Of a stretch of 64,000 bases of DNA, positions 13,581 through 64,000 are shown one piece after another. The stretch is taken from positions 625,001-689,000 of the forward strand of contig JACEVL010000162.1 in NCBI GenBank assembly GCA_020284085.1, written 5' to 3'. How positions within the stretch are numbered: the first letter of the stretch is position 1; the number at the start of each line of letters is the position of its first letter. This DNA comes from Aporrectodea caliginosa. Lineage: Eukaryota > Annelida > Clitellata > Crassiclitellata > Lumbricidae. Both the position numbers and the translations under genes were made by a program. The notes under the pieces are model-generated. The model saw nothing but the letters and a program-made list of their open reading frames with translations, searched no databases and was not told where the DNA came from.

Positions 13581-15043
13581 GCAAACACCTAGAATAGTTT
13601 TATACATGCGAAACGCTAGGATTGTTGACAATGACAATTAAACTAATAACAAAAACATAAATAAATAATAAAAAAATTAAATTCACTGAAGTGAAATAAA
13701 ATGTTAAATAAAAAATTAATAAAATAAATAAAAACAGAAACTTTTATTCCACATAATCTAGCCCAACCTTTCCTATATATTCCTATTCCTTTCACTTTCA
13801 AGCGAACTTGTGTACTGCAGTAACGGTTAATAATTAGGCTAATTGTAAAGAATTAACTGCAAAACAACTTTACGATGTACAACATGAAACATGCTCATCC
13901 CGTCACAGTATTGCCCCCCCGACGCTTCAATTTTTATCTGAATGCTTTCCCCTCGGACGAATATTGATCTACAGACCATTACCTTCAAATTGGTAGTGAA
14001 AACGAAACTTTTACATCAACTTGAAATGACTGAGTGTCTGGGCCCCCCACTATCTGTACGAATATCGAAATGCGTTAAATCCATGCCATTGACTATTTAT
14101 TTGACTTTGATAACAGCAGGCCTATCAATTACGCGTTTTATTAATTATTTCAAGTTGACACTGAAGAGTAGGCCCTCAGAAAGAACATCGATTAAACAAA
14201 AACTGATGGTTGTCGTCATATTTAGCAACATATTATTGGCCTAATTTTATCCTAATCTAATTTCGAGGCCAGTGCTCTGAACATTGCATGGTGCTACCAA
14301 TAAACACATTTCAAATCTAAGAATTTGAAATCATGTTCTCTTCATTATATAATGTCTTCATTGCAAATTTTCTTTCTCGCCAGTCGTGGCAGAGAGCCGC
14401 GCCGTTCGTTTGACCTTGGTTGCAAGCCATGGCCAGTGGTTAAATTGTTCAGCCAGAGGTGGCAGTTCTCCAAAGTTTTGCAAATCAAAACCCTAAGTCG
14501 ATACTCGCTATTCGCTAGTCGAGCAAAACCTGAAAAGTTGTGAAATAAGATCAGCGAGATCCGGATGAATACAGCCAAGCCGAGGGAAGAGAGCAATGGA
14601 AGGTAGAGGGAAGAGAGCTAATAAATAAAATACAGCCCGTAAAAACAAAGTTTTTTACTATATCCATCTAGTATCCTATAACGTGTACTCTGAAAATAGT
14701 CCGCGTTCATTTTACGACATAGCGTGCGTTTAATGAGGCAGCGCGCCCGTTTTTGTTGCGGCCAATGGCAACGCTGCGTATCGGAAAAGGTGATTCCCCG
14801 ATTCGAAAAGTTTAGTCCCCGATTCTATAAGCTTGCCTTTTTTGGGGGAGCTGAAATTTGTATAGAATGAAGTGTCTGCAAGGGCGAGTCTATCTGCCAA
14901 GTTTCAGGACGATTGAATGATTGTAAGTGATCGAATTAGTCGTCGCAAGATTTGACTTTTTATTTTTAGCCTGTGGCTCAAACAAACAAACATTCAAGCA
15001 AGCAAGATTTCCATAAGTTAAACTAGATGGATAAAAAAGGGTG
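13365..15043. other. Presumed 3' UTR and intergenic sequence
   Basis: A/T-rich with several AATAAA hexamers (13660, 13695), then unassigned sequence. A CTGCCAAGTTTCAGGACGAT ...AAACAAACAAACATTC segment (about 14895-14995) looks like the tail of an interspersed repeat. No gene recognised. Confidence 0.5.
13485..13578. repeat. (CA)n microsatellite
   Basis: Imperfect then pure CA repeat in the presumed 3' UTR of the membrane-protein gene. Confidence 0.9.
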
Positions 15044-17325
15044 GAAGAGAGCGAAATGGAGGAAAGGGAGGATGAGAGTGAAATGGAGGGCAAGGAGGAA
15101 GAGAGCGAAATGGAGGAAAGGAAGGATGAGAGTGAAATGGAGGGTAAAGAGGAAGAGAGCGAAATGGAGGGTAGGGAGGAAGAGAACGAAATGGAGGAAA
15201 GGGAAGAAGAGAGCAAAATGGAGGGTAGGGAAGAAGAGAGCGAAATGGAGAGTAGGGAGGAAGAGAGCGAAATGGAGGGTAGGGAGGAAAAGAGCGAAAT
15301 GGAAGAAAGGGAAGAAGAGAGCGAAATGGAGGGTAGGGAAGAAGAGAGCGAAATGGAGGGTAGGGAGGAAGAGAGCGAAATGGAGGAAAGGGAAGAAGAG
15401 AGCAAAATGGAGGGTAGGGAAGAAGAGAGCGAAATGGAGGGTAGGGAGGAAGAGAGCGAAATGGAGGAAAGGGAGGAAGAGAGGGAAATGGAGGGTAGGG
15501 AAGAAGAGAGCGAAATGGAGGGTAGGGAGGAAGAGAGCGAAATGGAGGGTAGGGAGGAAGAGAGGTAAATGGAGGGTAGGGAGGAAGAGAGCGAAATGGA
15601 AGAAAGAAAAGAAGAGAGCGAAATGGAAGAAAGGGAGGAAGAGAGCGAAATGGAGGGTAGGGAGGAAGAGACGGAAATGGAGGAAAGGGAGGAAGAGAGC
15701 GAAATGGAGGAAAGGGAGGATGAGAGTGAAATAGAGGGTAAGGAGGAAGAGAGCGAAATGGAGGTTAGGGAGGAAGAGAGCGAAATGGAGGAAAGGGAGG
15801 AAGAGATCGAAATGGAGGAAAGGGAGGAAGAGAGCGAAATGGAGGTTAGGGAGGATGAGAGCGAAATGGAGGGAAGGGAGGAAGAGATCGAAATGGAGGA
15901 AAGGGAGGAAGAGAGTGAAATGGAGGAAAAGGAGGGAGGGAGCGAAATGGAGGAAAGGGAGGAAGAGATCGAAATGGAGGAAAGGGAGGAAGAGAACGAA
16001 TTGGAGGAAAAGGAGGAAGAGAGCGAAATGGAGGAAAGGGAGGAAGAGAGCGAAATGGAGGAAAAGGAGGAAGAGAGCGAAATGGAGGGTAAGGAGAAGA
16101 AGAGAGCGAAATGGAGGAAAGGAAGGTAGGGAGCGCAATGGAGGAAAGAGAGGAAGAGAGCGAAATGGAGGAAAGGGAGGAAGAGAGCGAAATGGAAGAA
16201 AGGGAGGAAGAGAGCGAAATGGAGGGTAGGGAGGAACTGAGGGAAATGGAGGAAAGGGAGGAAGAGAGCGAAATCGAGGGTAGAGAGGAAGAGAGCGAAA
16301 TGGAGGAAAGGGAAGGTAGGGAGCGCAATGGTGGAAAGAGAGGTTGAGAGCGAAATGGAAGAAAGGGAGGAAGAGAGCGAAATGGAGGAAAGGGAGGAAG
16401 AGACTGAAATGGAGGGTAGGGAGGAAGAGAGCGAGGGTAATGGAGGGTAGGAAGGAAGAGAACGAAATTGAGGAAAAGGAGGAAGAGAGTGAAATGGAGG
16501 GTAGGGAGGAAGAGAGCGAAATGGAGGAAAGGGAGGAAGAGAGCGAAATGGAGGAAAGGGAAGACGAGAGCGAAATGGAGGAAAGGGAGGAAGAGTGTGA
16601 AATGGAGGGTAGGGAGGAAGAGAGCGAAATGGAGGAAAGGGAGGAAGAGAGCGAAATGGAGGGTAGGGAGGAAGAAAGCGAAAATGGGGGAATGCCATGG
16701 GAGGAAGAGAGCGAAATGGAGGAAAGGGAGGAAGAGAGCGAAATGGAGGAAAGGGAAGAAGAGAGCGAAATGGAGGGTAGGGTGGAAGAGAGCGAAACGG
16801 AGGAAAAGGAGGGAGGGAGCGAAATGGAGGGAAGGGATGAAGAGAACGAAATGGAGGGAAGGGAGGAAGAGATCGAAATGGAGGAAAGGGAGGAAGAGAG
16901 CGAAATGGAGGAAAGGGAGGGAGAGAAAGAGAAAGAAAGGAAGAGAGGAAATGGAGGAAGGGAGGAAGAGAGCGAAATGGAGGAAAGGGAGGAAGAGAGC
17001 GAAATGGAGGGTAGGGAGGAAGAGAGCGAAATGGAGGGTAGGGAGGAAGAGAGCGAAATGGAGGGTAGGGAGGAAGAGAGCGAAATGGAGGAAAGGGAGG
17101 AAGAGAGCGAAATGGAGGAAAGGGAGGAAGAGAGCGAAATGGAGGAAAGGGAGGAAGAGAGCGAAATGGAGGAAAGGGAGGAAGAGAGCGAAATGGAGGA
17201 AAGGGAGGAAGAGAGCGAAATGGAGGAAAGGGAGGAAGAGAGCGAAATGGAGGAAAGGGAGGAAGAGAGCGAAATGGAGGAAAGGGAGGAAGAGAGCGAA
17301 ATGGAGGGTAGGGAGGAAGAGAGTC
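15044..17325. repeat. 27-bp purine-rich minisatellite (about 85 units)
   Basis: The unit is approximately GAAATGGAGGAAAGGGAGGA AGAGAGC, with GGAGGGTAGG and GAGGATGAGAG variants. The plus strand is almost all purine. A 27-bp stop-poor unit keeps all three plus frames and two minus frames open for hundreds of codons (ESEMEEREE, KRAKWRKGR, LPFLHFALF). No frame is favoured and interruptions shift the frame, so I treat it as non-coding. Confidence 0.93.
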
Positions 17326-17434
17326 AATCCTTGTGAAATCAACAAATATTATGTGAATTACCTTGTTAATGACCTATCTCAGATTTGGCTCTAATTTTTG
17401 CTATTTTATTGTTTGTCAAAAGCCTACCGCCATG

Positions 17435-20034: not shown

Positions 20035-25913
<5,879 letters not shown>

Positions 25914-27549: not shown

Positions 27550-30500
27550 TCAGTGCTTTCGTTTGCGGATCTTCAGTGATCCTGAATCTTGTATACTAGT
27601 TCTAGGTATAGATTCCCAGTGAAGAGCTTGCTGGTGGTTTGAAACTTTCATGTGAGTCAGAGAAGTTGAGCATTTTTCTGAAGAACTTGTAAGTTCATTG
27701 GATGATTGCACACTATTCTTAAACTCATTTATTTCCTGCTGCTCACTTGAAATTTCTAAACTCTCTATGGCCACTGATCTCTTTCTCTGTGAGTCATCAG
27801 ACTGTTGGGAAGTTTTAGATGTATAAGATTTTTCCTGAGATTTTTGTTTCATCAACTTCTTACAGGAGCTTTGCGATTTAGAACTGTGTATCCCATACTG
27901 TTTTGAATGGGTTTTTGCAGCAGAAGGAAATGTGTGCACATCTTTCTGATTATCTGATGAATTTAGACTACCCAGTGTAAGGGAAGACTTTGATACAGAT
28001 TTTCTTGGTTTACTTCTATCTGAGTGGCTTAAATCTGAGTCAGATTGCTCAAGTTCAGACTTCTTTATGCAACATGTAACCTGAGAAGACTTTTGCTTGG
28101 CATTTATAATTGTTTCAGATTCATCCGATCTGTTTCCTCTTTCAGGTTCAATTTCAAGTTCTTGCTGAGGTTTTGAAGCTTTTTGGTCGCAATGAGATGC
28201 AATGCTTCTAGGTTTTGAGCAAATATGCCTAGACAACACCTGAGAACAGCTGTCTAATTCATCTGTATTTGCAAAACCAAGTGGATCTTCTGATTCTTGA
28301 CACTTCAGACAATTATTGCTGGGTGTCAGACTTTCCATTGGTTGTTGTTCACTGCCATCTATCAATTCTTGCCTGATACAGCTTTCCTCATAAACACTAT
28401 GACCAGACAGAAATGGTTTGGTCACAAGTGGCTCTGAAGTCAAGGACTCTTCAGTGCTTCTTGTGTTATCTAGCTCAATGGGTGTTTTTGTAACAACTGG
28501 TTCAGTACGATCTAAATATGTACTGTGATGGAGAATATTTGGCACGGACACTTTCTTTTTATTAGGACTTGCAACATGTAGCATATATTTCATACATGTC
28601 AACTCTTCTTCTTGCACTGATTTTAGATGTCCTTGTGTAGTTGATGTGCTCTGAGTGTAGTGCTCAGCTAAGTTAACACTTGACAAAGGCATGCGATGTT
28701 TAGATTTCAACCTAGACTTCCTTGTAATCACCGCACCATCTTTTACTGTTCTAGGAATATTTACTGGTATTAGATTAAGCTTGCTTCCTTTGGCAATATT
28801 TTCATTAGAAGTGGTACAGTTTTCTGATATTGGGAACAACTGGTCCAGTTCTCTGTCGCACAGAAGTTGGTCATGTTTTTCTGGTGGAGACGTCAGTTTA
28901 ATGACACATTCTTCAGTCATGTCACAGTCTCCTATGAGCGATAACATTTCAGCAGGCTCTGTGACAGATTCATTGAGATTAATATCAAGAGGTGAAGCCA
29001 AGGATAATTTTCCTGTGCAACAAAACAGAGGCAGTGTGCATTCAGAGGAAGCCACGTTATTACTTAGTTCCTGTTCAAATGGTACAGAGATACTGGTTGG
29101 GCACAGTATGTTGCTGCATGATACCTTTAGTGCAGCACTACTCTCTGATGTTCCATGGTCTTTTATGCAGAACCTTGCTTAGAAAAAATATCTGAACATT
29201 CCACATTAAATGCTGCTGTGGATTCATTTCCGACAGCTGAAGTTGAATTTAGTGCACAGTGTTCAGATAAAGTAAACCTACTGATAGAGTCTGATACAGA
29301 TCCGTTATCTCGCTTTAATGATGGGAGGTTTTCTGGTTTTTTCAAAGGTGATAGATGGTCAATTGATGCTGATGAATGGCTTGCTTTGTTAGCAGCGAGA
29401 AACGATAGATTATCTGTCTTCTGTGAAACGCCTGCAAGCAAGTCCAGGGTTGCATTGGTGTTCTTCAACATTTTAGTGCTGTGTGATAATAATCTATCGT
29501 GTAACACAGGCAAGATGTGTGTAGATGTCGCATTTTCAATTGGCTTTTGCTGGTTTTCAGGGATCACTTCAACTTGGACGTTGTTTTCTATATCAACACT
29601 ACCATCAGGCGCAAGTGGTGTGGTGGCAGTAGATTTGAGAGTCTGGGATCCTACGTTGTTACCAGTTGTAATTGTATCAAACTTTATGGTTGTTGCAGCT
29701 ACTGATGGCTTATGGATATTGTAGAGTTTTGGTATGCCCTCACTATATCGATCACTGCCAACAACTTGTACAGAATCTGCCGAAAATGTAAATTCTCGTT
29801 CTTTTGGAGCATGTTTTTGATGAGCTTGGCTGGCTGGTGCATTTAGAAGATGGTGCTCATCGGACTTTTGTATTCCTTTAGTTCGATTGTTAGTCTTCAG
29901 TCGAGATTTTATTTTAGATTTCTGTCTCACTGCTGTAGTTATTTTCATTGTTCTTGCATTGTCTTCTTGAATCAGTTTCCTTTTGTCTTCTGTTGTGATG
30001 TCTTTAGTTGTTTTGTGAATGGTAAGCTTTTCCGAACATGGAAAGAGTTCATCTAGCTCCTTGTCTGCAATATACTGGTCACATTTTTCCAATGGAGATA
30101 ACAATTTATGAAGACCAGGACTTTCTTGAAGAAGATTACAGTCATCAAAAATTGGTAAAACCTTGTCACTCTGTGTATCTTTCTCTGCTTCTTTCAGAGT
30201 GTCATTGTATGACGACATTGGATACTGACTTCTGGCAGTACCGGTTACAGGTAACATATGCTCTGAACATGATACTCGTTCACCATCTGCTAATTCTGCC
30301 TGAGCAAGCACTTGAACACTTTTATTTGTAACAACATCGCTGTTTTTCAGTACAGTTAATACAGCACTGGCCTTTGACAGTGTCAAGTCATTTATTGCGT
30401 CACTGCTCTTTGAAGTCAAGTCATTTATTGCACCACTGCACTTGGATGATGGCATGTCATTTACTTCAGAACTTTCTTTTATTGAGATGTCTAGTCCTCT

Positions 30501-33248
30501 GACGTTATGTGCTAATAAGGATTTGTTCACAGCAACTGTTCTACTGCCTTTTGAATTCATTGCACAATATTCGGTTGTCGGTGATTTAAATTTCATTCTT
30601 GCCTCTGATACTAAAACATCACCACTTTGCGACAGTGGCAAGCTTTCTTGTGCTTCAAAGTTATCAAGTGGCTCTGATGGCTGAGCTGTTTTGTTAGACA
30701 AGTGCAAAAGATGTTCGTCCTGCAGCACTGATGCAGTGAATTCTGATGCTGCAGCGGTATTCTTCAGCTCTGAAATGTTGAACAATAGGCTACCTTGTGA
30801 GCTACGTGGAATGTGTGTTGATTTCAGATCCATCCCTTGATCCTGGAGCTTCCCAGCCCTTGATTCAGATGCATTAGGTTTCTCTGTATCAGCTGTATTA
30901 TCAGAAACAGTTGGTGTAGTAGCAGGGGACTTCAAACTCACAGATTCTGTAGTGGTTGTTGTTACATTTAGCAGTATTGACATGGCAACCGATGGCTCAT
31001 TCACAGCACAATAGGCTGACTTGATTTCAATCTCTTTGATGTGGCCCTCATCTGGGGTAGACTCTTTTATGAATGTCAATGGCCTTTCTTTGGGCACATG
31101 CTCTTGAAGTGATTGACAAATTCTGGAGTCACTTGAAATATCTGAATCTCCATGTAACTTTTGGGTCACATTGTGACGTTTCAACCCTGATTTATTTTTG
31201 ACTGGTACAGCCTGTTTTGCTCTTTTTGACACTTTTACCTGAGATTGTTTACTCCGTTTATTGCCTGCTCTGACGTTTTCATTACCATGAGCTGCAGTGC
31301 ACGTTTCAGACAATGGAAACAGTTCCTCTAGCTCCTTGTCTCCAAGATGTTGAGCATGGGTTTCTGGTAAAGGTGACGATTTATGTGGGAAAATGCAATC
31401 TTCAGGCAAGTCACTGTCTTCAAACAAGAATAAGAATCCATCATTAGTTGACTGTATTTCATTCCCAAAAGCAGTGTTATTTTGTTGGAAATCCAGCGTA
31501 CGGTATTCTGCTACTGAGATTTTACATTGTGAAAATGTTGTCTTGTTGACGCAATCAAACTCTGATACATTATCTTGTTCAGCCATGCTTTTTTGAGCTT
31601 GGAATGATAATGTATTTAGGGACTCTGATACACGACCATGCCATTCAGTGCTTTTCGACAATGCTGCAGATTTACTCCTCAAAACAATATCATCCTTGTC
31701 ACAAATGCTGGATTCTAAAATAGGACTAACTGTTTTGGACATGTTTTGTGAACCAACAATGGGAGAATTCGGGAGACTTTGAGCAGGAGTGTCATCTGAC
31801 TGTGACACCGAGGCAGTCACTGGGGTAATCTGTCTGTGCAAACTCTCTGGACCTAGAGTAGAAGTCATTGTTGGACTAGGATTCTGCTGCAAGTGTTGTA
31901 ATACGCGAGAACTTTTCATACTAATCTGTTTGTGTTCCAGCTTTGAACCTAGGGTACATGAAGTCATTGGAGTAGTATTATGTTCCTTAACTGATCCAGC
32001 AACAGAACTTATAGGACTAGCAGTTTTCTGCAAATCCATTGAGTTTAGAATAGGAGAAGTCATTGGACCAGGACTTTGTTTATCATTTGAATCATGAGCA
32101 TAAATTATGGGACTAATATCTTTGTGGAAATCCTCCAAGCATATGACAGGGGAAGTCATCGGACTAGGATCATGTTCTTCAACTAATGCAGCAACAGAAA
32201 TTGCAGTACCAGCAGTACTGTCCAAATTCTCTGAACCTTGAATAGGAGAAGTCATTGGACTAGGACTGTCTTCATCATCTGAATCCGGAGCACGAGTTAT
32301 TTTACTAACTGTCTTGTGCAAACTGCCTGAGCCCAGAATAGGAGAAGTCATTGGACTAGGACTCTCTTCATCATCTGAATCCGGAGCACGAATTATTTTA
32401 CTAACTGTCTTGTGCAAATTCTCTGAGCCCAAAATAGGAGAAGTCATTGGACTAGGACTGTCTTCATCACCTGAATCTGAAGCACGAGTTATTTGACTAA
32501 CTGCCTTGTGCAAACTGCCTGAGCCCAGAATAGGAGAAGTCATTGGACTAGGACTCTCTTCATCATCTGAATCCGGAGCACGAATTATTTTACTAACTGT
32601 CTTGTGCAAATTCTCTGAGCCCAAAATAGGAGAAGTCATTGGACTGGGACTGTTTTCATTCTCTGAATCAACAGTATAAGTTACGTCGCTAAATCCTTTC
32701 TGCAAAATCTCAGAACCTAAAATTGGAGATGTCATTGGACTAAGATTTTGTTCATCATCTGCATCAGAAGCATGAGCTATCATTGTTTTGTTTAAATTCT
32801 CGGGGCTTAGACTGGCACTGTTCATTGAACCAGTATCGTGGTGATCAACTGGATGAGGTATCCGACTACCAGTTTTGGGCAACTTCTCTGAACCTGCAAT
32901 GGCACTGCTCATTGAACCAGTATCGTGGTGATCAACTGGATGAGGTATCCGACTACCAGTTTTGGGCAACTTCTCTGAACCTGCAATGGCACTGCTCATT
33001 GTACCAGTATCGTATTTACAACCAGATTCTAAAACATAAGTTAACGAATTGATCTGTTTGTCCACATTTCTTGAACCTCGAATACGAGAGAGAGCTGGAC
33101 CAGAATAGCCTGTACTGGGAGAAACCAGAACAGGAAGACGATTGTTATCATCAGCCGTGAAACCTGAAACTGGTCTGATCATTCGATCAGGAACAGTTGA
33201 TCTGGGGTTAACGTTTGTGCTCATAGTCAACTTGGTCTGCCTTCTTTC
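27550..33248 (-). CDS. PDS5: Last exon of the PDS5-like gene: ~1,900-residue low-complexity tail
   Basis: The exon opens after a TTGTACAG acceptor, in phase 0 with the preceding VSHRSFPLQSELKDPSVK exon, and reads ERRQTKLTMSTNVNPRS. It stays open for 1,361 codons to a TAA at 29163. A second open frame then runs to the TGA at 27550, about 542 codons. The protein is Ser/Thr/Lys/Asp-rich and probably disordered. From the N-terminal side it has two near-identical 29-residue units (GSMSSAIAGSEKLPKTG), then about 12 units around SPMTSPILGS, then three ~400-residue modules, ending in the basic KIRKRKH. Vertebrate PDS5 tails are only a few hundred residues and carry AT-hooks; no RGRP core is visible here. 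The function of the tail is unknown. Confidence 0.85.
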
Positions 33249-36200
33249 CTGTACAATATACAACACAAAACATTATGATTTCTGACACTTTAAAATTATA
33301 TTTAAATTAAACAAGAATATTTCTAGCTATATTTATAGTCAACTGTTATGTACAATTAAAAGAACAAAATGATGTTACTATGGCTTTTATCACACAGTAC
33401 AATGTATTGATGCATGTATAGTCAAGAGACACTGTACAGCCATTGACCATCAGAACTGATGCATATATGGCACTGGGTAGATTTAATTGGTGTAATTCAG
33501 TCTACATGTATTTAGCTGTGTCTCTTGTAGGTGTCAATGTATACCGGGTAGTAGACGGCCAGTTATAACAAAAATTACTGTATAGGCCTACCTACAACTG
33601 TAACCCCAATCCTTAGGGCAGATTGGATTAGAGTTACCCATCCCTTTGATACTCACAGGCAGAGCGGTCATCTTCCAGTTACTTTCATGAGACAAACAAC
33701 TGCCCTTTAGCCCATAAGACAAGACCATGTAAGGCCATACAGGGCATGACTGAAACGCGAAAAGGCCTTTGCATGATGTGGTCCATATAGATCCACAAAG
33801 GCAGTTTTAGGGAGCTTGTAGATAGTTCAGAGTTTGGCAGTTCAGTACCAGTTTAGAGGAGTTCAACACATTGCCAACCGCATAATTCTGGTGGAAGGCG
33901 GCTGGGAGGTTGACAAAGGTTCAGAGTTTGGGTGTCTTAACAAATCAAGGGTCAGTACACACAAAAATGCACTGAAAAATCCTAGAGGGATGCCATATCA
34001 GTGCTGAAGTGTATATGTGGCCCCTGGTGTTTGTAATGATCAAGTCTTCAGATGTTATTGGAAAAGGAAAGTTCTGTGAATTCTTCATACAAGACCTCAC
34101 TGCCTGCTCGTCATTGGGTAAGGGTTGTCCCGTGAATTGCTCATTTGAAGAGCTGTCGTCACCTAGGCGCTGTAATGGGTCAACGCCGGACCCACAAACC
34201 CTCGCCCAAGAAATCAACATTATCATCACAACTCAGCAGACCGGTTTCATCCTGTCATCACTACGTCATCCCATGTTTAATTGAAGTTTGAACAAGGGAT
34301 TTTTATCTTGTGTTTCGAATATTAATCAGTAATACCTGTTGCTGTTTCATGAACATGCATAACCTACATCATTCATAACTTTGACTAATTTTGTTTGTAT
34401 CTTGTTCGATTTTTCCAGCACGATCTTCAAGCTGTATCATAGGTTCACAAAGCCACAGTTACCATGGAAAGACTACTTAAATATTAATGTGCATAATTAA
34501 GACAACAGAGGTTTCCTGATTCTGTGTTGTAAAACCAAATGGCCAAATTTATATCGTAATTAAATGCATTACTTTAAATAATATCCATGCTAAGAGGACA
34601 ATAATTATAGTATGTAATTTCTGACCTTTACTGATGGGTCCTTTAGTTCAGACTGAAGCGGGAAACTCCTGTGAGAAACCTGTATCAAAAGTAAAAAGTG
34701 ATACTTAAGAATTTTACAGCCTGTAAAATAAGTTCAACAATTTTTAAAGTTAAATAATATAATATTATAATTTTTAGTATTAATACTAGTCAACTAATCT
34801 TAATAATACATACGGTATTATTAAGAATATAGCAATAAACTTTAAAAATCTTCAAACTCAGTGTTACTGAAAGAGATTTAACTTACACCACTGGGTTTGG
34901 TAAAGAGCCGAGTAGGTAAGACAGGTTCTATTGGAAGTTTTGATAGTCCATTTGGAACCTTCTTTGTCAATAAAATGTTGAGAGCCACATCACAGACTGC
35001 ATACAATTTCTGCAACAGAACTCTGACAATGAATATATATATATACGGTATATATTATATATATATGTATATATATATATGCGTGAACCTCCTTACACAA
35101 ACTACCATTGGAATTCATATTGTTATCACTACATGTATGTCTCATTTCATATACCTTTTACTTTATTCAGTTGGCTTGTTCATTAAATGCTGCCTCTTCA
35201 TTTCAGTGGACTGACTCTGTCACCTTTTATTTGCCATCAATTGATGCCTTGCGCTTAAGATACTGACACCACATAACTTGCTAATTAACAATAAAGTACC
35301 ATATATCACATTCCAGATTGCACTATATTAGAATCTGCATTAAAATGAAACATGCCACAATGTGGTTTCACAGTAGAAATTCAGTTGCTTAAAGTTCTGA
35401 AAAACCTTCCTCTGAATCTACATGTCCTTTGAGCAATGGATGCTTCATATACCTTTTATCAACACCTGAAACTGTTCTCTTTTGCTAGGGCCAGAGGGCA
35501 CCTTTGAGTAACCTCTTGAAAGGGTAAATATATAAATGCTCTTAATGAACAAAAAACGAATGGAATCCTAAAAATGAACACCTTTATTATGCCACAATGC
35601 ATAAAACAGAAACATATAACACACTACTCAACAAAAAATGAAAGACATCGTTACCACCATTCAGTATTTTATAAAGTTCAGCCATTGTACTCGGGTCATG
35701 AACCCACTATACTACTGGTTATGGGCCTTATCCTCTGTAGGCTACCCTGACTTCTGGAATCTCTGATGTGTTAGATTTAGTTTAGACCTCTCCAACTGAT
35801 TATGATTTTAACTTCAGTTTCATGTAAAGTGATCCTCTAATTCTCAAACGGCACTACAGACGTCAATAGATTAGAATAGTGCTAAGAAATTCAACTCAGT
35901 GCAGTCATTGAGTTTGCTGCAAAGGAAGTGTCTTATTACAGCAGTATTGCGAACAGCACAAAGTAAAGATTTAAGGTGCAGAGTAAAGCGAAATTCTACT
36001 GACCATATTTGACATAGCTGAATTTGGCAACTGCTTGTCTTTGGTCATCTTTATACTTTCACATAACTTCTTGCAGAAAACGAAACCACTCTTGTCATTC
36101 TTTGAGATCAGGCAATCAAGAAGAAACGAAAGGCACCTAGGAAATATGCCAGCAGCAGATCTTGAATTTCTCCAATTCTCAACAAACTTGCATTTAAAAA

Positions 36201-50800: not shown

Positions 50801-53800
50801 GAAGTTTGAGTGGTCAGTTTTATTCCATTCTGTCTGGTCATACAACCGATAGCAAAAGGTCAGTGCGCTCATTTATAGCCACGCTATAGCCAGGTTTATT
50901 AGTGGTAGAAATGTTTGAACAGCTGTCTGTCTTGGCAGGGGTGCAAATCCTCAACGTCTGGGTTGATAGTCCAATATGCTACCCATTAAGCTACTAAGAA
51001 CCCCATAAAAGTTGCTAAATTAAGAAAGCAATACTTTGACCAACAAGATATTCAGACACTAACATTAAATACATTAACGTTCTCATTAACAGCGAGTTTA
51101 AATACGTAAAGGAGAGGTTACCTTCCACATCGGCTGTTCCAAAGCGATGGAAGTGCGGAGGATAAGACTTCTAGCAAGATCATATGCAGCCTTCTTTTCT
51201 CTCTAAAGACAGAAACATGCTTATGAAAAAACAAGCCTAAGTGGTGTCGAAGTCCATTAACCACAGACGTTAATCTGCAAGAAAACTATGCTCATGTTAC
51301 TGGAAAAGTCAAAACTGTTGGGCTCTTGTGCAAATGTAGAGCCCAGCCAATGCAGTCTTATCCACAATGTAGAAGAAGAAGAGCACTACCTTCAGCTAAA
51401 TTGAGAGACAGCTACGGGTATGAAGTGTTAGCAACTTAATTTTCTTAGCCTCGGCATATGACATGAGGGCGGGTGACCAGTACTCTCCCTCGCCATCTCA
51501 TCTTCCCAAAGACAATGTAAGGTAATGTACTCATTTTAGTTGACCTGGCAACCCTGTACTATACCTTAATTGGGTCCAGTAAGCATGGCAGAATGATCTT
51601 CAGTATATCTTGTGCAATGGTTGGAGCCTCATTCAAAAGTGGAGTCAGAATATCCACAAGAAAAACCGACAAACAGGCTGGATGGTCACTCCTGTTAGGC
51701 AAAAACAATCGACAGAAATAAGTATTTTGAAAGAATAGGCTATTCATATAAAATGCTAGCAACAGGATAGCATAAATAAAATATAGGCAACATACTTGTT
51801 TAAGAACCTGTATAGAAACTACCAGAAATGTGGCCCCAAAGTCAAAGGATCATTTGGCTGAGGTGCAAACAAGACCACAGCAATTAACTGACAGCAGACC
51901 ATCTTAACCTCTCAACTGGAAATAGTACTCATTTACTGTACCAAATGGATGGGGCATTGAGTTTTTCACCATACTGAACAGTTACCCATTCAATACTAGC
52001 CGAGTCCATAAAGCTTAACTGTACTTTTCTTACCAGCATCACACACAATCCTTGTGATCAGGCCTTTGACGACTATATAGTAGTAATAATACCGGTAGTT
52101 TCTGTTTACTGACCTTGAGCAATACAGGTGTTTAACATAACGGTCCTCCATTATCCCAGTTTGGGCTTGGCACTACACATTATAAGTGAAATTGTACTTG
52201 AAATGCAGTGTTGTATTGTTTGTATTGCTTGTACTGTGTTGCTCTAGTTTTACTCATAGAAGCATGTAATAAATGATTAGCAAGGAAGGACTTCTAGGTT
52301 AGAATACCTGACAACTGCAAAGAAGCACTTGAACAGAGCTCTCAGAACATCACAGTATTCGCTAAGATCAAAGCTGATGCTGAAGATTTTTGTTCTCGCA
52401 AGGTTCTGTTTAAGAAGAAAATGACACAACCAATCAGTCAGGTCAGAAAATTGTGGCTTTAATTAGACTCCAAGGACAAAAACAAGGATGTACAGCTAAT
52501 TATTAGTAAACAATCAATGGATGCTAGATTAAGTTTAACTGAAACTGATAAGAAGATGAAGAGCAAAACAATCAAGTGCTTAGCATTCTGGTCTATCAAC
52601 ACGACAGATGCCAGAGCTAAATCCCTTCCACTGCACAAAGATGTTTCAAAATATCTGCTTCATGTGTGCCTCCTGCTGAACTCAGCTATCAAATGAGTAC
52701 TCTGTCAGTAGGAAATCATACAGTAATGGAGACGACTAGCCATCCACCCGCACATGCTGAGGATAAAAAAGCTAAAAAAATTAATATCAACCACAAATTT
52801 TACACTGATAAGGAAAAATTGAGGAACAAACCTTCAGCAAATGCAAGTAACGTTTGAAAAAACGTGACTGTCTATCGGCCAATCCATACAGCAGATTGGT
52901 AAAGAAAACAAATATCTTCTACAAAGTTAAATAGACAAGTCTTTCATAACAGTAATATAAAACTAAAGAAAATTCTGCAAATGTTACATTCGTAAGAAAC
53001 TGATTTTTAAAAACTTTCTTATATCCACTGTAGCATAGCAGTGATCCTTTGGGATTTAAAATAAAATTGATCACATTTTCCAAAATAACAGATCAAAACC
53101 GAATAAATGGATATGCAGGATCCCTTTTTTCAGAGATTGTTTTAACAATATTTTGTTTTCCTATTAGCTCAGGATGTTTAAAAAACAGAAAATCACATAA
53201 AACAAAACAATTAAAGTAGAAATAAACAGTAACAGCACCTTAAGCTGGTAAGCTGTGTATGGACACTCAGGAGCAAGGGTCCGAAAGATGTCTGTAATAC
53301 AGGAAGCTGCTAGCACTCGGACCTCTAAGCAGCTGTGACTGATGTAGAAATCAGAAGCTAAAAGTTCTGCCAATGGTTTCAAATCACAAGCTTCATCTTG
53401 AACATCATAGGATTCCAACGTTTGTGCAAGAAGCTGAAAATCAGCATAACATAACATAACAATTTATAACAGTATTTTCACTTTATTTAGTGTTGTAGCT
53501 CTTGTGAGATTCTTAAGTGCTATATAAGTATCAGATACGTACATGCATACATACATAAATACAAACATACGAGCATGAAACATACCATATTTTACTGCAT
53601 GTTAATGATCAGTGTTTAATCTAGACCTCTCTAGGGGGGAAAGTTCCCCCAGGATCGAGATTTCCCCAGAAAAATGGAAGAGATGAAATTTTGTACAGAA
53701 AGTGTGAAATTTAGGGATAAGTCTTGTTACTACCCCCCCCTAATTGCCCCGGTCCTCAGCTTTTATGAACTTTTGGGATCCCCCCGAGAACCCTCGATTC

Positions 53801-54831
53801 CCCCCGCCAACAGCAAGGGGACTAGATTAAACACTGGTTAATGATGACTGTTCCAGTACAGCAGAAAAACAAGAACTATGCAACAGAATCATTAAATTTG
53901 ATGCATTGACAGCAGAGTTAGAAATATGCTCCAAATTAACCACATAAATGAAAGCTACTTTTGATAAAATGGCTCTTTAAAATTCAATTGTGAAAGATAA
54001 GTTTAAAGCAACATGATAAAATAATAGTTGATCAGAAATTGTTACTAAGGCGTTTTATTTGTAGGTCCAATGGTTCATCTGTTTGGTGAGGCGCCCTTGT
54101 AACGGCATGGCCGTGTAACGGCGCAATATAAATTGTCGTAATCATTATTAATTACTATGCATGCGTAACTTTACTTAATTAGCTATTACATCAAAGTGGC
54201 GATTGGAATATTATTATTATTATTATTATTATACTGTCATTTATAGCGCGCCTAAACAAAAAGAATCTTGCACAAAAGCGCGTAACAGGAAAGTCTAGTC
54301 ATAACAAATCTTAAACAAATAAGTCTTGAGGTTCTTTTTGAAAAGCGTTAAAGTTGAAGATCTGCGAATAAAGTCTGGCAGCTTATTCCATTCAGCTGGG
54401 CCGGCTAGTGCAAATGCACGATTTCCAAGCTTTTTAAGTGATCGTGTGACAACAAAGTCAGCTTGCGATGAAGATCGTAATCCACGTCTGGAAGGGAGAG
54501 ATGAACAGGGTGTAACAAGTGACGACACATAAGAAGGTGATGATTTTGTGTGGACTCGGTACATTAGAAGGCAGATTTTGAAAGTAATGCGGGCTTGTAT
54601 GGGGAGCCAGTGTAGTTCACGGAGGGTGGGGGACACATGATCACGAGGAGTTAGGTTTTTGATAAGCTTTGCATATTGTTTAAATAAACTATTTGTTGCG
54701 AAATAATACAATCAATCAATCAATCGACCGATACTTACCTTCAATCTTCTCACAAGTTCACTGATTTCCAGTTGACAGTCGATCTTTTGACAGCCTGAGG
54801 GGTAGCAGGCTTCTGCCGAGTCTAATATCAT
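27550..54831 (-). CDS. PDS5: PDS5-like cohesin regulator with giant repetitive C-terminal tail (28 exons)
   Basis: PDS5 proteins bind the cohesin ring in the nucleus and, with WAPL and sororin, control its release and maintenance. Exons, 5' to 3' on the minus strand: 54831-54739, 53433-53239, 52918-52832, 52405-52308, 51691-51565, 51202-51122, 50488-50342, 49759-49644, 48922-48810, 48315-48170, 47775-47627, 47142-47029, 46344-46214, 45547-45408, 44782-44585, 44097-44007, 43320-43251, 42224-42101, 40770-40612, 39986-39918, 39312-39182, 38643-38520, 37747-37543, 36908-36794, 36136-36004, 35009-34887, 34679-34626, 33248-27550. The first 27 sum to 3,333 nt (1,111 codons) and every junction is in phase. 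Diagnostic stretches: LAASCITDIFRTLAPECPYT, SVFARKLHKGLQSLRLPL, ILRREYIKRN, MPEYTLPYAIHMLAHDPDF, KLYAVCDVAL. The start is the first in-frame ATG, just before the YPSG motif. The last exon carries a frame break (see separate entry). Confidence 0.93.
28760..31430 (-). repeat. Three diverged ~400-residue modules in the PDS5-like tail
   Basis: Each module opens with a D/ExCxL...SPLxxxxQxLxDKELDELFPxSE motif. The copies read GDKELEELFPLSE (DNA near 31300-31350), ADKELDELFPCSE (near 30040-30090) and CDRELDQLFPISE (near 28830-28880). A basic patch follows (KSGLKRH, KSRLKTNNR, KSRLKSKHR). Modules 1 and 2 also share PSVA...KS-ATTP and THI...L segments. The spacing is 1.2-1.3 kb. The third copy lies beyond the frame break, which argues that the downstream frame belongs to the same protein. 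Confidence 0.75.
29163..29181 (-). other. Reading-frame break in the PDS5-like tail
   Basis: On the minus strand the upstream frame ends at TAA (29165-29163). The downstream frame is closed by TAA at 29181-29179, so the switch must fall within 29178-29166. One extra base there would join the frames. The only phase-compatible GT-AG pair I found using the nearby GTTCTG donor would be a 29-nt intron, which is too short to be likely. An assembly error, a natural indel or an unusual intron using a weaker donor all remain possible. Confidence 0.75.
31780..33060 (-). repeat. 96-bp (32-residue) coding tandem repeat, S/T-P rich
   Basis: About twelve units share the pattern SPMTSPILGSxxLHKTVSxI followed by an acidic DSDDE patch. 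The central units are nearly identical at DNA level with a 96-bp period, including a two-unit higher-order duplication around 32330-32640. Units toward 31800 and 32700 are diverged. A separate 87-bp unit is duplicated near 32815-32995. The S-P and T-S-P sites are proline-directed kinase consensus sites, and the acidic patches resemble CK2 targets. Confidence 0.85.
39003..39115 (+). repeat. tRNA-derived SINE fragment in a PDS5 intron
   Basis: Box B GGTTCGAGCCC (39044-39054) is followed by GTGACCTTGAGCAAATCTTT and a T-run. The same body motif (GACCCTGGACAAGCTGCTCA) appears without a head near 37908. Confidence 0.5.
41073..41871. mobile_element. hAT-type element with TTGTTGCC subterminal repeats, in a PDS5 intron
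   Basis: Ends CAGGGTTGG and CCAACCCTG, with the perfect 8-bp duplication GTTTATTC (41065-41072 and 41872-41879). Many TTGTTGCC and CCGGTTATTGCC copies cluster inside both ends. No transposase seen. Confidence 0.92.
44856..44900. repeat. (AAT)n microsatellite
   Basis: TAATAATAA repeat with GATAAT interruptions in a PDS5 intron, just upstream of the 44782-44585 exon in transcript order. Confidence 0.85.
47401..47600 (-). mobile_element. LINE 3' end in a PDS5 intron
   Basis: The minus-strand translation gives FSVVGPAVWNGLSLELR... SDTFYKCLKTSFL, the usual LINE C-terminus, then GGTGCTATATAAATAC and a (TGAA)n tail at 47401-47420. It is 5' truncated. Confidence 0.72.
53610..53836. mobile_element. 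Short hAT-type MITE in PDS5 intron 1
   Basis: Inverted ends CAGTGTTTAATCTAG and CTAGATTAAACACTG. GTTAATGAT is present on both sides (9 bp identical, consistent with an 8-bp duplication plus one chance base). The interior has C-runs and CCCCCCGAG-type blocks. Confidence 0.87.
54207..54720 (-). mobile_element. LINE 3' end in PDS5 intron 1
   Basis: A 138-residue open frame (54295-54711) carries the hallmark C-terminal reverse transcriptase tail of CR1/L2-like LINEs: LRELHWLPIQARITFKICLL, then GNRAFALAGPAEWNKLP, then FKKNLKTYLF. The 3' end at 54207-54235 is an (AAT)n tail. The 5' side is truncated next to a (TCAA)n run. It is little decayed, so it is a fairly recent insertion. Confidence 0.85.
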
Positions 54832-61672: not shown

Positions 61673-62010
61673 AACATTTATACGCTACAGCAAATTAGCG
61701 GATAAATAAGGACAATTATTAATAGAAATGAAATGATATCGTAGCGGTATTATTGAATTTCTTCGCCGAGTTATCGATGTTTGCAAGTCGTCGTACTAAA
61801 TATCTCCTAATAAGTAAGGAATGTCAAAGTTTCTTTACTTTTACACAAAAACCTTAGGTTCTGATTGCTCTGGATTTCAACCTCTAGTTCCTTACTGATA
61901 GTACGGTACTAACCTTTTAGCGAAAGAAATGAGATTTATACTAAATGAGTGGGTCTGTCCAGAAAAAACTTTAATTTTAGTGTACGATAAGTCTAAATTT
62001 GCTGACAACT

Positions 62011-64000
62011 AGATTGTTCGGTATGATAGCCTGTGATTGGTCGGTATGAGACGGCGCCTGTGATTGGTCCGTATGATAGTCGCCTCTGATTGGTCGGTAT
62101 GAGACGGCGCCTGTGATTGGTCCGTATAATAGTCGCCTCTGATTGGTCGGTATGGGACGGCGCCTGTGATTGGTCCGTATGATAGTCGCCTCTGATTGGT
62201 CGGTATTAGACGGCGCCTCTGATTGGTCGGTATGAGACGTCGCTTGTGATTGGTCGGTATGAGACGTCGTCTTTCATTGGTCCGTTTGAGACGGCGCCTG
62301 TGATTGGTCGGTATGAGACGGCGCCTGTGATTGGTCCGCATGATAGTCGCCTCTGATTGGTTGGTATGAGACGGCGCCTGTGATTGGTCCGTATGATAGT
62401 CGCCTCTGATTGGTCGGTATGAGACGGCGCCTGTGATTGGTCCGTATGATAGTCGCCTCTGATTGGTCGGTATGAGACGGCGCCTGTGATTGGTCGGTAT
62501 GAGACGTCGCTTGTGATTGGTCGGTATGAGACGTCGTCTCTCATTGGTCCGTTTGAGACGGCGCCTGTGATTGGTCGGTATGAGACGGCGCCTGTGATTG
62601 GTCGGTATGAGACGGCGCCTGTGATTGGTCCGTATGATAGTCGCCTCTGATTGGTTGGTATGAGACGGCGCCTGTGATTGGTCCGTATGATAGTCGCCTC
62701 TGATTGGTCGGTATGAGACGGCGCCTGTATGAGACGGCGCCTGTGATTGGTCCGTATGATAGTCGCCTCTGATTGGTTGGTATGAGATGGCGCCTGTGAT
62801 TGGTCGGTATGAGACGGCGCCTGTGATTGGTCGGTATGAGACGGCGCCTGTGATTGGTCGGTATGAGACGTCGCTTGTGATTGGTCGGTATGAGACGTTG
62901 TCTCTCATTGGTCCGTTTGAGACGGCGCCTGTGATTGGTCGGTATGAAACGGCGCCTGTGATTGGTCGGTATGAGACGGCGCCTGTGATTGGTCCGTATG
63001 ATAGTCGCCTCTGATTGGTCGGTATGAGACGGCGCCTGTGATTGGTCCGTATGATAGTCGCCTGTGATTGGTCGGTATGAGACGGCGCCTGTGATTGGTC
63101 CGTATGATAGTCGCCTCTGATTGGTCGGTATGAGACGGCGCCTGTGATTGGTCGGTATGAGACGTCGCTTGTGATTGGTCGGTATGAGACGTCGTCTCTC
63201 ATTGGTCCGTTTGAGACGGCGCCTGTGATTGGTCGGTATGAGACGGCGCCTGTGATTGGTCGGAATGAGACGTCGCTTGTGATTGGTCGGTATGAGACGT
63301 CGTCTCTCATTGGTCCGTTTGAGACGGCGCCTGTGATTGGTCGGTATGAGACGGCGCCTGTGATTGGTCCGTATGAGACGTCGCCTCTGATTGGTCGGTA
63401 TGAGACGGCGCCTGTGATTGGTCCGTATGATAGTCGCCTCTGATTGGTCGGTATGAGACGGCGCCTTTATGAGACGGCGCCTGTGATTGGTCCGTATGAT
63501 AGTCGCCTCTGATTGGTCGGTATGAGACGGCGCCTGTGATTGGTCCGTATGATAGTCGCCTCTGATTGGTTGGTATGAAACGGCGCCTGTGATTGGTCCG
63601 TTTGAGACGTCGCCTGTGATTGGACGGTATGAGACGGCGCCTGTGATTGGTCGGTATGAGTCGTCGCCTGTGATTGGTCGGTATGAGACGTCGTCTCTCA
63701 TTGGTCCGTTTGAGACGGCGCCTGTGATTGGTCGGTATGAGACGGCGCCTGTGATTGGTCCGTATGATAGTCGCCTCTGATTGGTTGGTATGAGACGGCG
63801 CCTGTGATTGGTCCGTTTGAGACGTCGCCTGTGATTGGTCGGTATGAGACGGCGCCTGTGATTGGTCCGTATGATAGTCGCCTCTGATTGGTTGGTATGA
63901 GACGGCGCCTGTGATTGGTCCGTTTGAGACGTCGCCTGTGATTGGACGGTATGAGACGGCGCCTGTGATTGGTCGGTATGAGTCGTCGCCTGTGATTGGT
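62011..64000. repeat. 26-27-bp CCAAT-bearing satellite (over 70 units, continues past window end)
   Basis: Units are GTGATTGGTCGGTATGAGAC GGCGCCT (27 bp) and a GATTGGTCCGTATGATAGTC GCCTCT variant (26 bp), with CATTGGTCCGTTTGAGACG variants in recurring higher-order order. Each unit holds ATTGG (inverse CCAAT) and most hold GGCGCC. Long minus-strand frames (SYRPITGAV) arise only because 27 is divisible by three. The 26-bp units break the frame. Confidence 0.95.

Follow-up and report, generated by a model that had tools for sequence, protein, structure and literature searches.

A divergent PDS5 gene of the annelid Aporrectodea caliginosa with a predicted long tail carrying three diverged copies of a module

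We analyzed a window of 64,000 nucleotides (nt) from the annelid Aporrectodea caliginosa (positions 625,001 to 689,000 of contig JACEVL010000162.1, assembly GCA_020284085.1), in which the minus strand carries a predicted gene for the cohesin regulator PDS5. The gene body, which encodes the HEAT repeats, lies at 34626 to 54821 of the window. It is followed by a giant tail exon that extends from 33248 to 27550 and contains first a repeat array and then three diverged modules, each with one copy of a short acidic-hydrophobic core. This is a real, unusual extension of a known protein. A first-pass annotation of the DNA had placed the modules behind the PDS5 HEAT repeats, and the tail is indeed in phase with the HEAT exons and on the same strand. 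That annotation had also drawn the modules as one run at 28760 to 31430, which needs correction: the tail reaches beyond these limits on both sides, the upstream array went unmentioned, and a frame break near 29165 places the third copy in another frame (29178 to 27550).

The exons of the gene body were mapped by spliced alignment to a human PDS5A sequence. The alignment gave a chain of 27 pieces, from which we excluded a putative first exon (59624 to 59570) that lacks an AG acceptor; the last piece was lengthened by a few bases, and exon 34679 to 34626 was added by eye. The resulting model has 27 coding exons on the minus strand (54821 to 54739 through 35009 to 34887 and 34679 to 34626), is phase consistent, has GT-AG boundaries at all junctions, and encodes a single open frame of 1104 amino acids (aa). 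A likely start ATG was seen by eye immediately upstream of the first boundary used (54821). When exons were scanned singly, one exon in 53167 to 53463 matched Pfam PF20168 (E 6.8e-13), and homologues bearing this domain covered 98% of the HEAT query. Inside the first intron lies a 138-codon frame (54295 to 54711, minus strand) without a Pfam match, which may be akin to the end of a retroelement reverse transcriptase.

We infer that the tail is joined to PDS5 by splicing. Phase is 0 both at the end of the last HEAT exon and at the tail acceptor (33248), and this acceptor, scored with a matrix built from 26 other acceptors of the same gene, reached 10.1 and ranked first among the 83 AG sites between 34625 and 33000. 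From there the first open frame of the tail exon (29163 to 33248, minus strand) continues for 1,361 codons to a stop at 29163. It could be argued that the exon is a separate, nearly intronless gene that starts at the ATG of MSTNVNPR (33224), since this ATG comes after eight codons of open frame, a gap of 1.4 kilobases (kb) separates the exon from the last HEAT exon, and the tail is unmatched in the 43 PDS5 proteins compared with it (best E 2.4). We regard such a gene as improbable given the shared strand, the phase of 0 on both sides, the top-ranked acceptor, a gap that holds no AATAAA and only two ATTAAA, and a basic C-terminus like that of some PDS5 homologues. A possible alternative last exon at 34431 to 34369 (minus strand; LEDRAGKIEQDTNKISQSYE and then a stop) is in phase with the last HEAT exon, so a tail-less form of PDS5 is possible; the acceptor of this candidate fell outside the best eight of the 83 sites.

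All three modules carry the core, with the consensus D(K/R)EL(D/E)(E/Q)LFPxSE, followed by a net-basic stretch. Module 1 (30240 to 31544) has the core DKELEELFPLSE at 31340 to 31305, module 2 (29166 to 30239) has DKELDELFPCSE at 30065 to 30030, and module 3 (28162 to 29031, in the second frame) has DRELDQLFPISE at 28857 to 28822, all on the minus strand. The residues D, E, L, L, F, P, S, and E are invariant across the three copies; the LFPxSE part of the core thus stands as first described, while the preceding (D/R)EL should read D(K/R)EL. Successive cores are 425 and 402 residues apart, the second distance being about 349 if a 161-nt candidate intron is real. A profile of the 29-residue core, run against the six frames of the window, recovered the three copies only, with nothing else better than E 1.2.

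Outside the core the modules have diverged, with modules 2 and 3 being 32% and 26% identical to module 1. Likeness was measured as local alignment scores against 300 shuffles per pair. Whole modules scored far above the shuffles (modules 1 and 2, 289 with a shuffle maximum of 86; modules 2 and 3, 207 with a maximum of 93; modules 1 and 3, 170 with a maximum of 103), which bears out the claim of three diverged copies with a conserved core. With the 21-residue core masked, no shuffle did as well for modules 1 and 2 (score 212, maximum 72, 0/300) or for modules 2 and 3 (123, maximum 88, 0/300), and likeness of these pairs outside the core is clear in the alignments. For modules 1 and 3 it appears marginal, since 7 of 300 shuffles were as good (score 78, maximum 83). 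The core together with the 25 residues before it is acidic in each copy (net charge, -5, -4, and -5 in copies 1 to 3), and the 66 residues after it are basic (+9, +9, and +6). Because a net charge of +7 or more occurs in 7.1% of 66-residue stretches across the tail, the basic patch that had been reported behind each core is clear in copies 1 and 2 and less so in copy 3.

The reading frame breaks after copy 2 and before copy 3. Beyond the break, a second open frame (27550 to 29178, minus strand; 542 codons) contains module 3 and runs to a stop at 27550 with the C-terminus SLKIRKRKH. We viewed the break at first as a plain sequence error, until candidate splice sites that would join the frames came to light. 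These sites define a GT-AG candidate intron of 161 nt (29013 to 29173, minus strand; donor AAG/GTTCTG, acceptor TTGCACAG/GAAA), with a donor score of 3.9 and an acceptor score of 10.5, compared with 2.2 to 11.8 for the donors and -2.3 to 10.0 for the acceptors of the PDS5 gene. Splicing across it would leave a tail of 1845 aa open, an outcome for which the chance of frame restoration is one in three for any GT-AG pair. The candidate intron also resembles the coding sequence of module 1, in the second frame only (P = 0.006, 2,000 shuffles), and this trace favors a 1-nt indel or former coding sequence that was intronized. The break may thus reflect either the 161-nt intron or, near 29165, an indel of 1 nt, and perhaps both if coding sequence was intronized; either way, copy 3 can, from the sequence, be part of the protein. 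There is only a slim chance that the break is a real truncating mutation and that copies 1 and 2 alone are made. A recent deletion of 1 nt would leave a module 1-like trace of the kind observed, which continues across the break in no frame but the second. However, a well-scoring GT-AG pair could restore the frame, the core of copy 3 has been kept, and the second frame stays open over its whole length to a basic C-terminus.

Comparison of the copies with one another suggested that the core is under constraint. In every pair, the ratio of nonsynonymous to synonymous differences per site (pN/pS) was lower in the core than in the rest of the module: 0.43 versus 0.72 for modules 1 and 2, 0.28 versus 0.61 for modules 1 and 3, and 0.40 versus 0.77 for modules 2 and 3. 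Bootstrap intervals of core and rest were separate for modules 1 and 3 (0.16 to 0.47 versus 0.49 to 0.76) and overlapped for the other two pairs. Constraint thus appears stronger on the core than on its flanks, a pattern expected of a binding site and in line with the proposal of a core kept in otherwise diverged copies. These ratios support purifying selection on the core and do not prove it, because synonymous sites approach saturation and there are only 33 to 34 codons in the core.

The tail as a whole is rich in serine (15.3%) and contains 45 SP/TP sites, whereas 2,000 shuffles averaged 26.0. Many of these sites come from the repeat array, which occupies approximately 31740 to 33013 (minus strand) and consists of 13 units of about 29 to 33 aa, 8 of which start with MTSP. 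At the nucleotide level, a 96-nt period is repeated 5.9 times at 32219 to 32780 (83% matches) and an 87-nt period 2.3 times at 32813 to 33013 (98% matches). The module is predicted to be disordered: AlphaFold2, given module 1 with the three-copy alignment, returned a mean predicted local distance difference test (pLDDT) score of 33.7 and no helix, and the best ten-residue pLDDT blocks sat over the core, where the prediction was slightly less uncertain. The repeats could represent neutral expansion of a disordered tail without a dedicated binding function, a reading that we consider unlikely. The similarity of the array units is typical of slippage and the module flanks evolve fast (pN/pS, 0.61 to 0.77), but a 12-residue core has been kept three times between modules that are otherwise so different.

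Two protein searches with the HEAT region found 43 and 53 proteins, at least 59 in all. Word sharing and protein length restricted what both could find (the first let in proteins up to 1.75 times as long as its 2465-aa query), and the absence of echinoderm or other relatives therefore means little. Among the matches listed, the nearest was P0001, a PDS5 of 1581 aa (source lgn) with 42% identity; named molluscs were 35 to 38% and fish mostly 35 to 37% identical to the window protein. P0001 is itself 53 to 56% identical to named bivalves and snails, which makes the window protein the odd one. Trees united the window protein with P0001, with support of 99/99 in a tree whose 28 rows were the window protein, the human PDS5A sequence, and 26 of the 59 homologues and 100/99 in a tree of 22 rows (20 of the 59 homologues). 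The homologues left out were mostly fish, and P0043 was left out of the 22-row tree and of the comparisons of near-invariant positions and loop described below. The end branch of the window protein measured 3.05 and 4.04 in the two trees, against medians of 0.13 and 0.18.

At 290 positions that are near invariant among 58 of the 59 homologues, many of them close fish relatives, the window protein is changed at 101 and P0001 at 20. One of these changes falls in the loop AP(D/E)AP, which is present in all 58 homologues and reads APECP in the window (53239 to 53433, minus strand). This PDS5 loop binds the YSR motifs of WAPL and Haspin (PMC10656103, PMC8198109). Docking of WAPL, Sororin, or Haspin may thus be altered, and WAPL binding by this divergent PDS5 is doubtful. 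Because the loop is a conserved feature and not what defines the domain, our claim is that of a divergent PDS5. At the other end of the protein, 5 of the last ten residues (GSLKIRKRKH) are K or R; at least 5 are found there in 27 of 58 homologues and fewer in 31, many of these 31 looking truncated.

Relatives of the tail were not found in the sets searched. The ELxxLFP pattern was absent from all 43 PDS5 proteins scanned, and a looser pattern occurred once each in P0018 and P0042, in neither case as the core. Profile searches of the 59 proteins gave best E values of 3.5 (29-residue core) and 1.1 (144 columns), with the motif in none, in keeping with the first-pass annotation, which had described the module as not known from PDS5 proteins. 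Pfam and NCBIfam identified no domain in the tail, the best hit being a subthreshold DUF4677 in the second frame (E 0.13). Among PDB sequences there was no relative of the first tail frame and no match to the module profile at E up to 10. A further search with the first frame found no relative at E up to 1 among the 7,984 best word-sharing candidates scored, although distant relatives may have escaped so serine-rich a query. An Rfam scan of the window found no RNAs. In the literature searched, nothing was found on the core motif (papers matched through DELFP only, none of them about the motif as far as listed), nor was a PDS5 with a C-terminal extension, intrinsic disorder, and repeats.

These properties set the protein apart from the known systems that it most resembles. 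It shares with metazoan PDS5A and PDS5B (PF20168) the HEAT region over 98% of the query, an in-phase tail exon, and, with part of the homologues, a basic C-terminal end, and differs from them in its very long branch, its changed near-invariant positions, its APECP loop, and a tail without a GRP AT-hook core (0 found). Its tail, with modules, is about 1,845 to 1,900 residues long, compared with whole proteins of 1082 to 1721 aa among the 59 matches listed. The PDS5 family of Arabidopsis, in which some members bear Tudor domains, likewise has diversifying paralogues; in contrast, the window tail has no domain found by Pfam or NCBIfam. That family comprises five genes, and plant Haspin carries a Sororin domain (PMC11148194). 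The motifs of Sororin and WAPL (YSR/PIM, FGF, and the Sororin box) are similar in being short motifs in disordered regions around PDS5 and cohesin, but regular expressions for PIM, strict FGF, and the Sororin box had 0 matches each in the tail, and a loose FGF pattern matched only LDF and LGF. On these counts we rejected an AT-hook tail, a Sororin-like box, and FGF/YSR motifs as the best account of the tail.

What the core might bind can be narrowed by its pattern. It may be an acidic amphipathic helix for the KIX domain of CBP/p300, RPA70N, or TFIIH p62, by which a transcription or replication factor would be recruited. With its acidic surroundings and its invariant L, L, and F, the L-x-x-L-F pattern fits a ligand of this type better than it fits a PP2A-B56 docking motif, and the core may resemble KIX-binding phi-x-x-phi-phi helices and acidic RPA70N ligands. 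Such patterns are common, however, no helix was predicted, and the module profile matched no PDB sequence at E up to 10; we think it a minority prospect that the core belongs to this class.

Alternatively, the core may be a PP2A-B56 docking motif of the LxxIxE type, bringing the phosphatase to cohesin and making the protein, in effect, its own shugoshin. PP2A-B56 is bound by Sgo proteins, protectors of cohesion at the centromere (PMC10970375). The core of copy 3 (LFPISE) is a strict LxxIxE match, the only one among the three cores; LFPLSE and LFPCSE are wide variants, and the LxxLxE form seen in copy 1 has a precedent, albeit a weak one, in LSTLRE of Emi2 (PMC7108865). The joined tail contains 3 strict matches (shuffle mean, 0.57; P = 0.02) and 7 matches to a wide ELM pattern (3.1; P = 0.03). 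Yet only one of the three strict matches falls within the conserved core, the second anchor (position 4) varies among L, C, and I, and the invariant F is not an anchor. Moreover, in the subset of ligands with a helper basic patch, that patch is found no more than about 15 residues N-terminal to the motif (PMC7108865), a side that is acidic in the tail, where the basic stretch is C-terminal. Compared with the docking sites of BRCA2 and KIF4A (PMC8484605, PMC7108865), which LFPISE resembles, the tail has its basic patch on the wrong side and a variable anchor. PP2A-B56 is a possible partner that fits poorly, and we give it little credence. We also weighed the WEST trough of PDS5 itself (PMC10656103) as a place where the core might bind.

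Our preferred reading, held at slightly better than even odds, is that this is a fast-evolving PDS5, and probably a paralogue specific to its lineage, whose disordered, internally duplicated tail serves as a multivalent docking strip. In place of the short tail of PDS5, or by growth of it, a disordered tail of roughly 1,845 to 1,900 residues would have arisen through two kinds of internal duplication, a proline-directed array of phospho-site-like units and three modules of about 350 to 425 residues. Each module would present one acidic-hydrophobic element (ELxxLFPxSE) that folds as a short amphipathic helix, with L, L, and F on one face, into the pocket of one partner, and the downstream basic stretch would contact DNA, chromatin, or an acidic surface. 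With the HEAT part holding the tail on cohesin, three weak sites would concentrate a single partner there, and phosphorylation of the tail would tune the interaction. The anatomy is well supported and the mechanism weakly so; we infer the helix, the partner binding, and the regulation. We favor the docking strip because of the in-phase gene model with its best-scoring local acceptor, the invariant core residues and core pN/pS below that of the flanks, the predicted disorder with the best pLDDT blocks at the core, the enrichment of Ser and SP/TP, the basic C-terminus, which 27 of 58 homologues share, and the long branch joined to P0001. A more specific version, in which a cohesin subunit was duplicated, gave up the usual loop for WAPL docking, and acquired a recruitment strip with three sites, is speculative and on balance unlikely.

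Several observations weigh against the docking strip. The frame is broken between copies 2 and 3, and the candidate exon at 34431 to 34369, judged by eye, would yield a PDS5 without the tail. AlphaFold2 placed no helix at the core. Synonymous sites between copies are near saturation (pS, 0.58 to 0.85), and the evidence of constraint comes from three copies inside one gene, the one search for tail orthologs having given none among the candidates scored with the first frame. Finally, the tree tool warned that a branch of this length is placed with little certainty, and also that the window protein differs from the alignment in amino acid makeup.

Elsewhere in the window, exons of an enoyl-CoA hydratase gene lie at 20871 to 23830 on the plus strand, convergent with PDS5, with PF00378 on three pieces. 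A purine-rich minisatellite of about 2.4 kb with extreme GC skew (14890 to 17373) leaves long open frames on both strands, which reach 827 codons on the minus strand. A tandem repeat at 62000 to 64000 reaches the edge of the window with several frames open (SYRPITGAV units).

PDS5 helps decide whether cohesin is retained on chromosomes or departs from them, and no part of the protein is less conserved or less well understood than its tails. If the less likely version with the lost docking loop is true, PDS5 itself would carry a partner that is normally brought by a separate adaptor, be it a phosphatase, a protector, or a factor for replication or transcription. The protein would then be a self-contained variant for cohesin protection or targeting, perhaps specific to the germline. 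A natural PDS5 that combines a diverged WAPL/Sororin loop with a triplicated docking motif would provide, as it stands, a system in which to learn what the tails recruit, and it could also show whether cohesin protection is rewirable inside one protein.

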